DNA from: Rhodopirellula sp. SM50
GTDB taxonomy: Bacteria > Planctomycetota > Planctomycetia > Pirellulales > Pirellulaceae
Assembly: GCF_002289565.1 (NCBI RefSeq)
Contig: NZ_NTFY01000023.1
Coordinates: 1-64,000, forward strand
Direction: 5' to 3'
Length of the DNA stretch: 64,000 bases
Part shown: positions 2,102 through 17,124 of the stretch, in pieces
How positions within the stretch are numbered: position 1 is the first letter of the stretch
How the letters are laid out: each line of letters starts with the position of its first letter
Notes under the pieces: model-generated
The model's database searches: none
What the model saw: the letters and a program-made list of their open reading frames with translations, nothing else
Told to the model about the DNA's origin: nothing
Position numbers and translations under genes: made by a program

Positions 2102-3511
2102 ATGACCAAACGGACCAATCGCCGTGGTTTCCTCGGTCGCACCGCTGCTGCCGGTGCGGTCGGTGTCGGGTACTGGACTGGCACCAGCCCCGTCCTCAAA
2201 GCTCAAGAATCAGCTCTTCAAGGGCTCAGTGCCGGCTGCATCGGCGTGGGCGGAAAAGGCGGTAGCGACACCAGCCACATCGCCGAGAACGGGGTCAACA
2301 TCGCGGCCTTGTGCGACATCGATGGCGACACCGTCAACAAGAAAGCCCGCGAATTTCCCAATGCGGAAAAATTCAGTGACTTCCGCGAAATGCTCGACAA
2401 GGTCGGCGACAAGATCGACATCGTGACCGTCAGCACGCCCGACCACACCCATGCCGCAGCCGCCGTCCGTGCGATGCGGATGAAGAAACACGTGTATTGC
2501 CAAAAACCGCTGACCTGGTCGATCGGCGAAGCCCGATTGATGCGGGAAACCGCCGAGCAGATGGGCGTCGTGACGCAAATGGGCAACCAAGGCACCAGCG
2601 AAGACGGGCTGCGAACCGCCGTCGAAGTGATCCAAAGCGGTGCGATCGGCGACGTTTCCGAAGTCCACGTCTGGTCCAACCGCCCCGTTTGGCCGCAAGG
2701 CCAGGGACGCCCCGAAGGCGAAGACCCGATCCCCGAAAACCTGAATTGGGATGCCTGGATCGGACCGGCACCGATGCGTCCATTCAAGAAGGGCGTGTAT
2801 CACTCGTTCAACTGGCGCGGCTGGGTCGATTTCGGAACCGGCGCCCTGGGCGACATGGCCTGTCACACCACCAACATGCCCGTCATGGCACTGAAGTTGT
2901 GGGACCCGGTCGCGGTCACCGCCATCAAGAACCCCGGGATCTTCGAAGGCGAAACCTTTCCGGCTAGCAGCGCGCTGATGTTCGAATTCCCCGAACGTGA
3001 AGGATTGCCGGCCTGCCAGTTCTATTGGTACGACGGCGGCGAATTGCCGCGTGAAGACCTAATCAGCAAGCTTCCCAAACGATTCCAAGAACAAATCGCC
3101 AAGCAGCGTGAAGGCGGTCGCAAGACCAGCGGCGCGTTGGTCGTCGGCAGCAAAGGCATGGTGTTCTCGGCCAACGACTACGGTGCCCAGTTCGACATCT
3201 TGCCCCAAGAAGATTTCAAGGACTACAAGAACCCCGAACCGTGGCTGCCGCGGATCCCCTTCAAGGCCGGAAACGACCAGCGTCAAAAGTGGGAGTTCGT
3301 CAGCACCATCAAGGGCGAATACGAACCCGGCACGATGTCCAACTTCGGTTACGCCGGACGTCTGACCGAAACGATCTTGGTCGGCAACTTGGCCCTGCGT
3401 GCCGGTGAAGGCAAACGCATCGAGTGGGATGCGAAAAACCTGAAAAGCACCAACGTGCCCGAAGTCAACGAGTTCGTCGCCCGCGACTATCGCAGCGGCT
3501 GGGAACTGTAA
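2102..3511 (+). CDS. Gfo/Idh/MocA family oxidoreductase, Tat-exported
   Basis: The product is 469 residues. The N-terminus is a twin-arginine signal (NRRGFLGR at residues 6-13, followed by a hydrophobic stretch), so the folded enzyme with bound nucleotide is expected to cross the inner membrane. A Rossmann motif GVGGKG follows, and the usual E-K-P motif of the family appears as QKP in HVYCQKPLT. The C-terminal half matches the family's substrate-binding part, with the segment WIGPAP common in planctomycete members. A GAAGGAA ribosome site sits about nine bases before the ATG. Known relatives oxidise or reduce sugars or inositols with NAD(P); the substrate here cannot be read from sequence. 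Two further paralogues lie at 32661-33842 and 61010-62320. Confidence 0.9.
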   Translation: MTKRTNRRGFLGRTAAAGAVGVGYWTGTSPVLKAQESALQGLSAGCIGVGGKGGSDTSHIAENGVNIAALCDIDGDTVNKKAREFPNAEKFSDFREMLDKVGDKIDIVTVSTPDHTHAAAAVRAMRMKKHVYCQKPLTWSIGEARLMRETAEQMGVVTQMGNQGTSEDGLRTAVEVIQSGAIGDVSEVHVWSNRPVWPQGQGRPEGEDPIPENLNWDAWIGPAPMRPFKKGVYHSFNWRGWVDFGTGALGDMACHTTNMPVMALKLWDPVAVTAIKNPGIFEGETFPASSALMFEFPEREGLPACQFYWYDGGELPREDLISKLPKRFQEQIAKQREGGRKTSGALVVGSKGMVFSANDYGAQFDILPQEDFKDYKNPEPWLPRIPFKAGNDQRQKWEFVSTIKGEYEPGTMSNFGYAGRLTETILVGNLALRAGEGKRIEWDAKNLKSTNVPEVNEFVARDYRSGWEL

Positions 3512-9221: not shown

Positions 9222-9280
9222 CAAACGGTCTCAAGGCATGGGAAGGGAGTGGGGCAACGCAAATTCTCCAGACGACCAAA

Positions 9281-9324
9281 CAGGTGTCGGACACCTTTTT
9301 GATTCGCGGACACCTTTTTCATTC
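9281..9324. repeat. aggtgtccgacacctt repeat abutting the permease stop codon
   Basis: The sequence carries caggtgtcggacaccttttt and then a second cggacacctttttcattcg. The right end overlaps the stop codon of the minus-strand permease gene. The same palindromic family is found as a compact perfect hairpin at 15370-15396 inside the LptE-like gene. Its position directly after a stop codon fits a 3' mRNA-end role, but this is inference. Confidence 0.7.
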
Positions 9325-13102: not shown

Positions 13103-13861
13103 ATGGCCGCCGAGCAAACCACGGCGGTGGTCCTGCGGACGATCGAATTCAGCGAAACCAGCCTGGTCGTCACCCTACTGACCCGTGATTTTGGACAGCT
13201 CTCCGCGCTGGCCAAAGGCGCTCGCCGTCCCAAGAGTTCCTTCGAAGGTTCGCTTGACCTGCTGGCCGTCTGTCGTGTAGTGCTGATTCGGAAATCCTCC
13301 GATGCGCTCGATTTGTTGACCGAGGCAAAGCTCCAGCGTCGTTTTCGCGGAGCGGAAAAGTCGTTGGATCGCGTTTATGCCGGATACTATATCGCCGAAA
13401 TGCTTCGACTGTTGACGGACAATCACGATCCCCACCCCGGGCTCTTCGACCTGACGCTCAGCGCGCTCGGGCAGATCGACGGGACGGGCAATTCCGCCCT
13501 GGCGGTACTCGGTTTTGACACCGCGGCACTGCGATTGCTCGGCCATGCGCCTTCGACGCGCCGCTGTGTCGACTGCGGTGGCCCCGTCAACGGTACCCCA
13601 CGGGTCGCGTTCGCACCGATCGCCGGCGGCGTCGTGTGTCGCGATTGCCGCTCGCGTCAACACAGCCTGTTGACGGTCAGCCGCGGAACGATTGAACACT
13701 TGGAGCGTTTGCTTGCACCCCACACGCGGCTGCCGATCGAAGTTCCCTCGGAGGTTTATCGGGAGATGCGTGGCTTGATCAGCCGATATATCCAAACAAT
13801 CCTCGGCTCGATTCCGAAAATGCAACCTTACCTGCCCGCCCGGATGGAACCGGTGGAATGA
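13103..13861 (+). CDS. recO: DNA repair protein RecO
   Basis: The 252-residue product is a RecO mediator, which loads RecA on gaps during RecF-pathway repair and anneals single strands. The N-terminal OB fold is recognisable (TTAVVLRTIEFSETSLVVTL then a GARRPKS basic loop). A zinc-finger has pairs CVDCGG near residue 155 and CRDC near 178. The gene starts immediately after the preceding stop codon and its last four bases (ATGA) overlap the start of the BamD-like gene, so all three are translationally linked. Confidence 0.93.
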   Translation: MAAEQTTAVVLRTIEFSETSLVVTLLTRDFGQLSALAKGARRPKSSFEGSLDLLAVCRVVLIRKSSDALDLLTEAKLQRRFRGAEKSLDRVYAGYYIAEMLRLLTDNHDPHPGLFDLTLSALGQIDGTGNSALAVLGFDTAALRLLGHAPSTRRCVDCGGPVNGTPRVAFAPIAGGVVCRDCRSRQHSLLTVSRGTIEHLERLLAPHTRLPIEVPSEVYREMRGLISRYIQTILGSIPKMQPYLPARMEPVE

Positions 13862-15252
13862 ATAAAAAGAATCAACAAATGGACCGATCCCGTCGCCTCG
13901 CCCGTTGGGTGTCGCGGCCGAGTTTAGCCGCAAGCCTGTTGGCAGGCACGTTGCTGGCAAGCACGACCGGATGCCAAACCGCCGGCGGCTCGGCGTCGCG
14001 CAGTTGGTTTCCCAAACTGCCGTTCCGCTCGGTGGCGACCAGCGAAACGGAGACGCCCGCACCGGTGCAGGCGGAGGAAACCCCTCGCGTGGCTTCCACC
14101 CCGGTCACCAACGCCGGCGGCAAACTGGGATTGCCCAGCACCCATCGGCTGGTCGGCTACGTCACCGGTAAAAAGCACGAAGACATCCCGCGTGCGAAAG
14201 AGTACTACCGCCGCGGTGACGAACTGTTCCGACAAGCCGCACGGGCTCCCAAGGCGACTCGCACCGGTATGTTCGCCGAAGCGGCCGAGTTGTTCGACAA
14301 CGCCGGCAAGGAAGCTCCGGGATCGGGATTGCACCAAGACGCTCTGTTCATGCAGGGCGAGTCGTTGTTCTTTGCCAACGATCTCAACGGCGCACGCGAC
14401 GCATTCGAAAAACTGCAAAAGGACTTTCCCCGCAACCGTCACGGGGATCGCGCCGCGGCCCGATTGTTTTCGATCAGCAAGTACTGGATCGATGTTTCCA
14501 AATCCGGCAGCGATGCCTGGTACTCACTCAACTTCTTCGACACCACGCGACCGCTGCGTGATGCCGACGGACACGCGATCAGGGTGCTGGACCAAATCCG
14601 TTACGATGATCCCACCGGCAAACTCGCCGATGACGCCACGATGGCGGCCGCGGCGGAGCACATTCGCAACGAGCAGTACGAAAAGGCCGATGAGTTTCTG
14701 ACGGACCTGCGCGAAACGTTCACCGACAGCGATCACCTGTTCTTGGCCCACCTGCTGGGAATTCGTTGCAAGCTGGAAATCTACGGCGGACCGGAGTACA
14801 GCGAACTGGTGCTGGACGAAGCCGACGAACTGGTCAAACAAACCCGGCGTCGCTTTCCCAACGAATTGCGTGAAGAGAAGTACAACCAATTGCTCGCACG
14901 CGCGGCGGCGGAAATCGCCTACCACAAAGCCGAGAAGCTGGCCTTCCGCGCCAAGTATCGCGAACGCAAGAAAGAGTTCGGCGCCGCGGCGCAGCTGTAT
15001 CGCAAGATCCTGCGTGATCATCCCACCACGCCCCAAGCCGAGCGGGCCCGCGAAGTGCTGGCCGAGATCGAGAAACTGCCCGCGACACCGACGCAGAACG
15101 TCGCCATTCGCGCCATCGCCAAGGCGTTCCCCTCGTCCAAACGATCGACACCGCTGGTCACCGTCGACTCTCTGCAAACCGGCGACGAAACTCCGGCCGA
15201 GTCGCCCACGGAAACCCCCTCCGAAACGACTGGCAAAAAGTTGCTTCGATAA
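13858..15252 (+). CDS. BamD-like TPR lipoprotein
   Basis: The 464-residue protein starts with a lipoprotein signal, lipobox ASTTGC near residue 39. The mature part carries tetratricopeptide repeats like those of outer-membrane assembly lipoprotein BamD/YfiO: DALFMQGESLFFANDLNGAR with YRKILRDHPTTPQAERAREV near the end. It is roughly twice BamD's length, with extra helical repeats and a Thr/Ser/Glu-rich C-terminal tail. The start overlaps recO by four bases. The gene precedes an LptE-like lipoprotein gene, and both would serve outer-membrane biogenesis. Whether it truly acts in BAM is inferred from similarity and context. Confidence 0.8.
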   Translation: MNKKNQQMDRSRRLARWVSRPSLAASLLAGTLLASTTGCQTAGGSASRSWFPKLPFRSVATSETETPAPVQAEETPRVASTPVTNAGGKLGLPSTHRLVGYVTGKKHEDIPRAKEYYRRGDELFRQAARAPKATRTGMFAEAAELFDNAGKEAPGSGLHQDALFMQGESLFFANDLNGARDAFEKLQKDFPRNRHGDRAAARLFSISKYWIDVSKSGSDAWYSLNFFDTTRPLRDADGHAIRVLDQIRYDDPTGKLADDATMAAAAEHIRNEQYEKADEFLTDLRETFTDSDHLFLAHLLGIRCKLEIYGGPEYSELVLDEADELVKQTRRRFPNELREEKYNQLLARAAAEIAYHKAEKLAFRAKYRERKKEFGAAAQLYRKILRDHPTTPQAERAREVLAEIEKLPATPTQNVAIRAIAKAFPSSKRSTPLVTVDSLQTGDETPAESPTETPSETTGKKLLR

Positions 15253-15289
15253 TGCACCGCCCGATGCCCCCCCAATCCGACACGAATGT

Positions 15290-15396
15290 TGGTGTGCAGG
15301 CTTTAGCCGCCCACCGTCGCTGCGAAGCAGCGACCGGGAACTGCCTAAAGGCTAGACACCAACGGTTGACGAAAAAGGTGTCCGACACCTTTTTCG
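15290..15396. repeat. Two palindromic repeats inside the 5' region of the LptE-like gene
   Basis: The first element (15290-15362) is an imperfect palindrome whose ends read ttggtgtgcaggctttag and its near-complement. The second (15370-15396) is a perfect 13-base inverted repeat, cgaaaaaggtgtc with its complement, around one central base. Both lie between the TAATG junction at 15250-15254 and the lipobox codons, and both preserve the reading frame. The second family member is at 9281-9324. Confidence 0.9.
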
Positions 15397-15896
15397 TAGC
15401 TTGGGTAACGTTGCTGTTGGGTGGATGTTCGGCGTACCAGTTCGGAGCCGCGGCGCTGTATCCGCGTGACATTCGCACGGTTCATATCCCGGTCGTGCGC
15501 AACGAATCGTTTCGCCACGACTTGGGTCCCCAATTGACCGACGCCTTGGTCAAAGAAGTCGAACGACGAACGCCTTACAAAGTGGTCAGCAATCCGAACG
15601 CCGATTCGGTGCTGCGCTGCAACATCACCGCTCAGTCAAAAGTCGTGCTGACCGAAACCAGCAGTGACGACCCGCGAGCGCTCGACAGCGCAATCACGGT
15701 CGGAGCCACCTGGACGGCACGCGATGGCCGTCGGTTGATGCAAAACAGCTTGGCCAGTATCGAGAGTGACAGCACAGGGTTCAGCCAAAGCGTTCGCTTT
15801 GTCCCCGAAGCCGGTCAGTCGATCGATACGGCCAACCAAGAAGCCATCGATCGACTCGCCCGTCGGATCGTCTCCCAAATGGAATCTCGCTGGTAG
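15366..15896 (+). CDS. lptE: LptE-like LPS-assembly lipoprotein
   Basis: From the TTG at 15366 the product is 176 residues, with signal peptide TKKVSDTFFVAWVTLLLGGC (lipobox LGGC), then AYQFGAAALYPRDIRTVHIP and a fold typical of LptE/RlpB: mixed beta-strands with the NESFRHDLGPQLTDALVKEV helix. LptE plugs the LptD barrel that places LPS at the outer surface. An ATG at 15252 in the same frame overlaps the preceding stop codon (TAATG) and was perhaps the original start; using it would put 38 mostly repeat-encoded residues before the signal. I favour the TTG because it yields a normal signal, though its ribosome site (AAAGG, 14 bases away) is poor. Confidence 0.75.
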   Translation: MTKKVSDTFFVAWVTLLLGGCSAYQFGAAALYPRDIRTVHIPVVRNESFRHDLGPQLTDALVKEVERRTPYKVVSNPNADSVLRCNITAQSKVVLTETSSDDPRALDSAITVGATWTARDGRRLMQNSLASIESDSTGFSQSVRFVPEAGQSIDTANQEAIDRLARRIVSQMESRW

Positions 15897-15964
15897 TGCT
15901 GCGACACACGTTCGCTTCACCTGACTGCAGCACCCCGCCCCTTTCTCGTCGGAAGTATCCAGCC

Positions 15965-16828
15965 GTGCCAGAGAGCCAAACCCGATCGGCCAAGGTTTGG
16001 GACATCGGTCAGCGTGTCTTGACGTTCGAACGTCGGCCGCTGGTGATGGGAATCCTGAACGTGACGCCGGACAGTTTTTCCGACGGCGGACGACACAATG
16101 ATCCCCGCGCGGCGATCGAGTTGGCGTTGCAAATGCAGACCGATGGGGCGGACATCATCGACATCGGCGGCGAGAGCACGCGTCCCTACAGCGATCCGGT
16201 TGCCGCAAACGAAGAACTCGATCGCGTGTTGCCGGTCATCGCAGGGCTGGCCGGACAACTCGCGATCCCGATCAGCATCGACACGAGTAAGGCCGCAGTC
16301 GCCAAGGCCGCGATCGATGCCGGTGCAGAGATCATCAATGATGTCACCGGGCTGGAAGGCGATGCGGCGATGGCGTCCCTGGCCGCCGATGCCCAAGTCG
16401 GTGTCTGCGTCATGCACATGAAAGGCACACCGCAGACGATGCAGAACGACCCAACCTACAGCGACGTGGTCGAAGAGATTTACCAGTACCTGCGACAGCG
16501 GATGGAGTTTTGCCTGGCTGCGGGATTGCGGCGGGAACGAATCTGCCTGGACCCGGGAATCGGGTTTGGGAAAACGCATGAGCACAACGTGCGTCTGCTA
16601 CAGCGGACCGCCCGGTTTTGCGAACTGGATGCACCGATCCTGATCGGTCATTCACGCAAAGGCTTCATCGGAAAACTGCTGGGCGACAAAACCGCAGATC
16701 GAACCGCCGCGACTCTCGGCGTGTCGCTCGCGGTGGCCGCAGCCGGCGCCGACATCATCCGTGTCCACGATGTCAAACCGACCGTCGATGCGCTCACTCT
16801 GTTTCGGGCCTGCGGCGCGATCGGTTGA
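15965..16828 (+). CDS. folP: Dihydropteroate synthase
   Basis: The enzyme condenses p-aminobenzoate with the pterin diphosphate in folate synthesis. All core motifs are present: VMGILNVTPDSFSDGG, DIGGESTRP, SIDTSKAAVAKAA, INDVTGLEGD, DPGIGFGKTHEHN and LIGHSRKGF, ending with RVHDV. The length (287 residues) is normal. The start is a GTG with GGAAG nine bases upstream; a GTG at 15896 overlapping the previous stop is possible but would add 23 residues outside the domain. It is the last gene of the recO run. Its final codons and 3' flank are duplicated in tandem (see the repeat at 16811). Confidence 0.93.
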   Translation: MPESQTRSAKVWDIGQRVLTFERRPLVMGILNVTPDSFSDGGRHNDPRAAIELALQMQTDGADIIDIGGESTRPYSDPVAANEELDRVLPVIAGLAGQLAIPISIDTSKAAVAKAAIDAGAEIINDVTGLEGDAAMASLAADAQVGVCVMHMKGTPQTMQNDPTYSDVVEEIYQYLRQRMEFCLAAGLRRERICLDPGIGFGKTHEHNVRLLQRTARFCELDAPILIGHSRKGFIGKLLGDKTADRTAATLGVSLAVAAAGADIIRVHDVKPTVDALTLFRACGAIG

Positions 16829-17124
16829 TCGGGCGCGACGTTTGATTTGCCATCTACTTTGACGCCAAGCGGGGCGTTTTTTTTGTTAGCGGTAGGGCGC
16901 GAGCCCTCCGGTCGTTCGCGGTGGTTTTCCAGCGTGACCGGACGGCTCGCGCCGTTCCGCTAACACCTGCGGCGCGATCGGTTGATCAGGCGCGACGTTT
17001 GATTTGCCCTCTCCTCTGACGCCAAGCGGGGCGTTTTTTGTTAGCGGTAGGGCGCGAGCGTCTCCGGTCGTTCGCGGTGGTTTTCCAGCGTGACCGGACG
17101 GCTCGCGCCGTTCCGCTAACACCT
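16811..17124. repeat. 157-bp tandem duplication of the folP 3' end, terminator and hairpin
   Basis: Sequence starting at 16811 (tgcggcgcgatcggttgatc, inside folP) recurs at 16968 with a 157-base offset and runs to about 17124. Each unit contains the last folP codons, the stop, a terminator-like stem with a T run, and an 80-base imperfect hairpin (gttagcgg ... ccgctaac). The second unit differs at a handful of bases near catctacttt/ctctcctctg. The hairpin belongs to the same family as those at the window start and at 46624. Confidence 0.9.
16862..16884 (+). terminator. Rho-independent terminator of the recO-folP run
   Basis: Five-base arms acgcc and ggcgt enclose a six-base loop and are followed by eight T residues, 34 bases after the folP stop codon. 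It is duplicated at 17019-17039 with a shorter T run. Confidence 0.65.

Follow-up and report, generated by a model that had tools for sequence, protein, structure and literature searches.

The window analysed here comprises 64,000 nt of the genome of Rhodopirellula sp. SM50 (G000; 9.8 Mb in 146 contigs), which we infer, together with the 14-genome set used for comparison, to belong to the genus Stieleria (Planctomycetota). Members of this genus include TBK1r (G004, CP036432.1), Stieleria sedimenti (G009), Rhodopirellula sp. JC639 (G006) and Stieleria tagensis (G012). In the window, an lptE-like gene is closely packed between two neighbours and carries two palindromes near its beginning:

13858–15252, forward strand: TPR gene ahead of lptE; its stop codon overlaps the lptE start, and by eye its N-terminus resembles that of a lipoprotein
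15252–15896, forward strand: lptE-like lipoprotein gene (open reading frame; PF04390, 4.9e-13; orthologues in relatives)
15252–15254, forward strand: ATG start, probably retained, overlapping the upstream stop as TAATG and followed by an in-frame, stop-free path (accessibility 0.58)
15289–15362, strand not applicable: palindrome I, of some 74 nt, with the in-frame reading VGVQALAAHRRCEAATGNCLKARHQ (RNA fold over about this span, -37.4 kcal/mol)
15366–15368, forward strand: alternative in-frame TTG, 20 codons before the Cys codon and between two hairpins (accessibility 0.13)
15369–15397, strand not applicable: palindrome II, a perfect inverted repeat of 29 nt that encodes TKKVSDTFFV (fold -16.1 kcal/mol)
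15390–15428, forward strand: h-region and lipobox FFVAWVTLLLGGC, from sequence, orthologue alignment and hydropathy, with putative cleavage
15896–16828, forward strand: downstream gene with a pterin-binding domain (PF00809, dihydropteroate-synthase-like), from the ORF list and Pfam

The TAA of the TPR gene (15250–15252) and the ATG of lptE have one base in common, and the coupled TAATG start given in the original prediction is exact at 15250–15254. The two palindromes described there as in frame and free of stops were found as well, with coordinates that were right within a base or two, and the reading frame 15252–15896 is open across both. The product matches the Pfam family LptE over residues 75–213 with 50.2 bits (gathering cut-off 23), and orthologues are present in all 14 genus genomes and in 192 of 199 sampled genomes of the family. 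Its lipobox reads LLLGGC with the Cys codon at 15426–15428, and the G-C pair is invariant among all 14 aligned orthologues; on the basis of motif and hydropathy, signal peptidase II would be expected to cut before this Cys. LptE is the partner of LptD and essential for LPS export in enterobacteria, and by analogy with the family the gene is probably essential in this host, too. While the domain, the lipobox Cys and the family-wide conservation are those of LptE, the leader, which is partly repeat-derived and may reach 280 codons, is unlike that of known LptE proteins.

Both palindromes are members of multicopy families. The arms of palindrome II, 14 nt each (15369–15382 and 15384–15397), are perfectly inverted; with up to 3 mismatches, its pattern matches twice in the window (0.00 expected) and at 21 places in the whole genome (reversed-pattern control 0), one of which, on contig 62, is a related GGGGTC palindrome. 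With up to 2 mismatches there are 19 places in the window's genome, 13 in TBK1r, 34 in G009, 35 in G007, 0 in G005, 2 in G006 and 1 in G010. The second copy in the window lies at 9279–9299 and is followed by a half copy (GACACCTTTTTCATTC); in G007, G009 and G004, too, palindrome II has copies about 6–7 kb away from lptE. The arm of palindrome I was found at 187 places in the window's genome and at 468 in TBK1r (up to 2 mismatches; reversed control 0), a count in which an intact copy may score twice, once per arm, and the family often forms tandem arrays with about 80 nt per unit. The only Rfam match, of palindrome I to the family c4-a1b1, scored 23.8 bits vs. a gathering score of 46.7 and was taken as chance. 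Further families comprise palindrome IV (293 places in G006, 236 in G005, 0 in G000 and G007), palindrome V (286 places in G007, 5 in G000, 9 in G009, 0 in G004) and repeat III, a single unit of which is weakly palindromic.

Apart from these families, a unit of about 80 nt (TTAGCGGTAGGGCGCGAGC...CGCCGTTCCGCTAACACC) is present twice at 16886–17122 of the window, past the end of the pterin-binding gene. Peptides resembling it seem to be encoded at two other loci as well (L157, L082), and the unit probably represents another repeat family. Moreover, palindrome I arrays of TBK1r (L171, L172, L174) contain four interruptions, at which the spacing is 1821 or 1822 nt. The three inserts that were read encode the same 485-aa transposase-like protein, identical over the 400 residues compared, which looks IS1380-like.

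With respect to known mobile palindromes, a Y1 transposase gene of G007 (L147) is flanked by palindrome II on either side, and one in the window's genome (L151) is flanked in this way by repeat III (up to 4 mismatches), which is the arrangement expected of REPs mobilised by RAYTs. No Y1 gene flanked by palindrome I turned up in a scan of 18 Y1 loci, of which 12 included about 1.5 kb of flanking DNA. The repeats resemble the REP/RAYT system as short, multicopy and dispersed palindromes, but they differ from it in the greater length and frequent tandem arrangement of palindrome I, for which those loci gave no Y1 partner, and in the weak palindromicity of the repeat III unit. Regarding the REP tag, by eye the lptE copy ends in CGTAG and the other copies listed have no shared GTAG/CGTC. 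A published REP survey reports many tyrosine transposase genes with flanking repeats for R. baltica, and states that intragenic GTAG/CGTC REPs are found more often at the N-terminus than at the gene end (PMC3733652).

Repeats lie between the lptE start and the lipobox in seven of the 14 genus genomes. The window has palindromes I and II at this position, TBK1r a seven-copy array of palindrome I and a decayed II, G009 a truncated I and II, and G007, in this order, a remnant of I, palindrome V and II. Pieces of palindrome I are found in G005, palindrome IV and a remnant of I in JC639, and two copies of repeat III, giving MKSTKKGKGVFFKKGKGVFFWLPLLTAMFSGC, in G010, which is a MAG of 85% completeness. 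Five families occupy this one stretch across the seven genomes, i.e., I and II in the window, V in G007, IV in G006 and III in G010, so several lineages have each placed their own abundant repeat into it. The other seven genomes, checked against the known repeat families only, have signals without these repeats that look ordinary by eye (e.g., MKALRHAPLIQLAWLPLVLVAITCVGGC), and this split bears out the original proposal that repeat insertion rebuilt the signal region of lptE. In a tree of the lptE region, the seven repeat-bearing genomes come together with modest support (80/96); of the 35 named loci and 16 further loci of the family that were read, those outside this group have signals that look ordinary by eye. 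As the repeat-bearing genomes are related, the insertion events are fewer than six and partly inherited. In five genomes of other genera (G078, G162, G022, G091, G060), unusually long open frames of 321 to 503 codons extend upstream of and through lptE, and these could be further repeat-bearing leaders.

Despite this turnover, the reading frame is held. The distance from the upstream stop to the Cys codon is 173 nt in the window, 854 in TBK1r, 158 in G009, 191 in G007, 224 in JC639 and 227 in G005; all are 2 mod 3, for which chance would give (1/3)^5 = 0.4% if the five differences were independent, a figure weakened by relatedness. In all six genomes the Cys frame is free of stops, and the two other frames contain 5 and 1 stops in the window, 16 and 7 in TBK1r, 2 and 0 in G009, 3 and 1 in G007, 2 and 0 in JC639, and 3 and 2 in G005, with one further frame stop-free at L003, L005 and L007. 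Each of the six has an ATG 2 or 17 nt past the upstream stop that is in frame with the Cys codon along a stop-free path, 58 codons before Cys in the window, 280 in TBK1r, 53 in G009, 64 in G007, 70 in JC639 and 71 in G005. Across 15252–15398, the hexamer score is 0.20 in frame compared to -0.73 and -0.31 in the other frames. Against translation of the leader, the 150 nt before the repeats have non-coding scores in TBK1r (-0.27; -0.10 in another calculation) and G007 (-0.20) and a score close to zero in G005 (0.03), although these nucleotides belong in part to the upstream gene, which is read in another frame.

The lptE array of TBK1r consists of seven units of exactly 108 nt each and is open in one frame (14, 7 and 0 stops). 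In the 19 other sampled palindrome I array loci of this strain, units measure 78–84 or 129–130 nt, and at 17 of them stops occur in every frame; the exceptions are L176, stop-free in all three frames, and L180, stop-free in one, and the spacings at L164 and L180 are all divisible by 3.

The frame and its openness in all six genomes, the buried TTG and the lack of a near start codon in JC639 lead us to conclude that the start beside the upstream stop is most likely retained and the repeats translated as an enlarged n-region. In JC639 (L005), the 60 codons ahead of the Cys codon contain no ATG, GTG or TTG (CTG is found at 37 and 8), and the only standard starts are an ATG at codon 70 and a GTG at codon 61 counted back from Cys; the repeats must hence be translated there, unless a rarer start codon is used. 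The original prediction had assumed that repeat insertion displaced the start; on this reading, the repeats would serve as 5′ untranslated spacer, the TTG at 15366 (or its equivalent in TBK1r and G007) would start translation and palindrome II alone would be coding. In its favour, this TTG would give a 21-residue signal of normal length, MTKKVSDTFFVAWVTLLLGGC, with a calculated core hydropathy of 2.56 and a charge of +1 before the core. Moreover, a start codon exactly 20 codons before Cys exists in three of the four clade-A genomes, as TTG, TTG and ATG (in the window, TBK1r and G007; missing in G009), and would yield a textbook signal lacking the long n-region; for many N-terminal REPs a later start, downstream of the repeat, is suspected in several species (PMC3733652). 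However, the upstream ATG is in frame in 6 of 6 genomes, the G009 locus (L003) has GTG or TTG codons at 39, 36, 16 and nearer instead of at -20, and the JC639 leader has none to offer within 60 codons. In addition, the mean unpaired probability is 0.58 at ATG 15252 and 0.66 at ATG 15264 compared to 0.13 at TTG 15366 (60 random window positions: 0.37 ± 0.09), which makes the TTG, set between two predicted hairpins, the least accessible of the three candidate starts; the same direction is seen in TBK1r (ATG 0.67 vs. TTG 0.29) and G007 (0.49 vs. 0.20). The displacement of the start is accordingly not supported and we regard it as rather unlikely, although a leader of 280 codons, as the retained start would imply for TBK1r, would be extraordinary.

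A second, internal start in addition to the upstream one is possible, with the coupled ATG yielding a long, perhaps poorly exported form, the internal codon yielding the normal precursor and the hairpins tuning the ratio of the two. Two starts are indeed present in the window, TBK1r and G007, and strong predicted hairpins flank the TTG, but the scheme is inapplicable to JC639, and at L003 and L006 internal codons lie at other distances (at L006, GTG or TTG at 43, 13 and nearer); we consider it rather unlikely. Finally, the repeats could be kept for a role of the RNA or DNA at the gene junction, e.g., in mRNA stability, termination or protein binding, and be coding only incidentally. The predicted hairpins are strong, and PMC3733652 places REPs of the surveyed genomes mostly in intergenic regions, mainly between co-directed and convergent genes. 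In TBK1r, however, the hairpin of palindrome II is broken (-4.1 vs. -16.1 kcal/mol in the window), while the peptide it encodes, LKTVSDTLLV, keeps its character and is still hydrophobic, and families swap at the lptE site while the frame is held; we think this explanation very doubtful.

In clade A, palindrome II encodes KKVSDTFF/FL(V), i.e., two lysines before the core and the first hydrophobic residues, and the original view that repeats supplied charged and hydrophobic residues of the signal was confirmed in this respect, palindrome II giving KK and FFV in the window. Core hydropathy ranges from 1.98 to 3.16 in the seven repeat-bearing leaders vs. 2.21 to 3.18 in the seven others. Among the array units of TBK1r, variable sites are distributed over codon positions 1, 2 and 3 as 4, 6 and 3, from which we conclude that the frame is held and the sequence nearly free; purifying selection on the sequence itself is not part of this claim. 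The mature LptE of the other three clade-A genomes is 96–98% identical to that of the window, and it would be unaffected by the repeats because signal peptidase II is expected to remove everything before the Cys.

Apart from lptE, repeats were sampled in G004, G005 and G007, together with repeat III sites in G010 and G000 (L164 to L303; 198 unique clusters). Copies had been picked from search results, with the TBK1r lptE among them, and the following figures describe this targeted sample and not genome-wide rates. In 37 of the 198 clusters, the frame of the repeat runs on into a following segment with coding-like hexamers, at the N-terminus in 33 cases and internally in 4. In nine of the 33 N-terminal clusters, no ATG, GTG or TTG separates the repeat from the strongest hydrophobic stretch that follows, and six of these nine are clear signal peptides by eye (L240, L209, L254, L270, L242 and L282, the last being lptE of G005); L270 carries an FGE-sulfatase domain and L242 is a DUF1559 protein (PF07596). 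As to the remaining three, the repeat lies after the signal at L236, and L237 (1548) and L273 show no clear exported gene. Many other candidates (e.g., L277, L264, L280, L272, L238, L268, L295 and L199) were rejected as signal cases, as an ATG follows the repeat, which is probably part of an untranslated leader. Many palindrome II copies are open in some frame among 54 contexts from G007 and the window's genome, and by eye no second signal role of palindrome II was found in these contexts.

Two further genes, C and D, were traced through the 14 genus genomes. Gene C has no Pfam match, and its product begins with MNA or MNG in four genomes, in each of which a repeat forms the n-region. This repeat is a palindrome I arm in the window's genome (MNASRWCLALSRSFDRRTLCVVVTLLLATTANA, then C) and in G009; G004 has two copies of palindrome I there, and G007 has palindrome V. 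For G010, G005, G006 and G003, the closest copies carry short signals that lack these repeats, the one in G010 with one internal stop. In gene D, which is SMP-30-like (PF08450), the signal is largely palindrome IV in G005 and G006; it reads MKLNPIWTAPLCRSNVATFARRWFPAVLLALASVTVATA, then Q, in G005, with VATFARRW and ALASV encoded by the arms, and G000, G004 and G009 have MNLHSxLYxLVVGFAALAIGxPxVSA instead.

Repeats were also seen in frame in other settings. At L236 of G005, a solute-binding-protein-like lipoprotein gene (PF00497), palindrome IV (1458–1520) lies about 20 residues past the lipobox in the mature linker. Palindrome II is in frame at 3002–3023 of L078 (G007) inside an ORF of about 2000 codons, and two repeat III copies are in frame at 1535–1591 of L203 (G010) in an ORF of about 1000 codons. 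In TBK1r, palindrome I is in frame upstream of a leader that is prepilin-like by eye (DAFTLIEMIVALVLASL; L263, 1536–1557), an ambiguous case with an ATG after the repeat.

Palindromic repeats within reading frames are known, for example from Rickettsia, where RPEs measure about 150 bp and nearly half of the 44 in R. conorii lie within ORFs (PMC10969869). RPEs are palindromic mobile repeats found in frame in unrelated genes and read as peptides, and such in-frame insertion into ORFs of known function is found here in lptE and other genes. Unlike RPEs, the repeats of this study measure 25–80 nt, lie in a leader that is expected to be cleaved and seem to supply functional parts of it, and several families replace one another at one site; the comparison is one of description and not of homology. 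According to PMC3733652, RPE-1-bearing N-termini are reported to be expressed, and in-frame palindromic repeats are protein decorations with an effect that is hard to assess. In the open-access literature searched, we found no report of palindromic repeats forming signal peptides or of several repeat families replacing one another in one leader.

Taken together, we favour as the probable course of events that repeats entered lptE in frame, behind its native start codon and ahead of the hydrophobic core of the signal, and that translation runs from ATG 15252 through both palindromes. Mobile palindromes, REP or REP-like, would first have entered the lptE signal in an ancestor of a Stieleria clade, with repeated insertions thereafter. 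Coupled to the end of the preceding gene, translation would then read the palindromes as an enlarged n-region; the last palindrome would provide the lysines beside the core (KKVSDT) and the first core residues (FFV), and a cut by signal peptidase II before Cys 15426 would leave the mature protein unchanged. The reading frame is constrained and the repeat-encoded sequence nearly free, and the same has occurred in other exported proteins.

More tentatively, and with rather more doubt than confidence, cleavable leaders could represent a genome-wide safe harbour for mobile palindromes in Stieleria, with the palindromes serving as prefabricated modules for signal peptides. Where the left arm is A-rich and the right arm T-rich, repeats read KK...FF, and palindrome IV reads VATFARRW...ALASVAT, so that each carries a basic n-region beside a hydrophobic stretch. 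If this is true, transposition could give exported proteins a new targeting portion in their signal and leave the mature protein as it is. For annotation, a caution follows, namely that long repeat-rich N-termini in these genomes may be real, and TBK1r, with its 280 codons before the lipobox Cys, offers a testable extreme. In one probably essential and several other exported proteins of Stieleria, repeats occupy the targeting signal, and in one gene they largely constitute it; that the encoded segment would be discarded suggests why such insertions survive, and points to repeat insertion as a source of new signal peptides.
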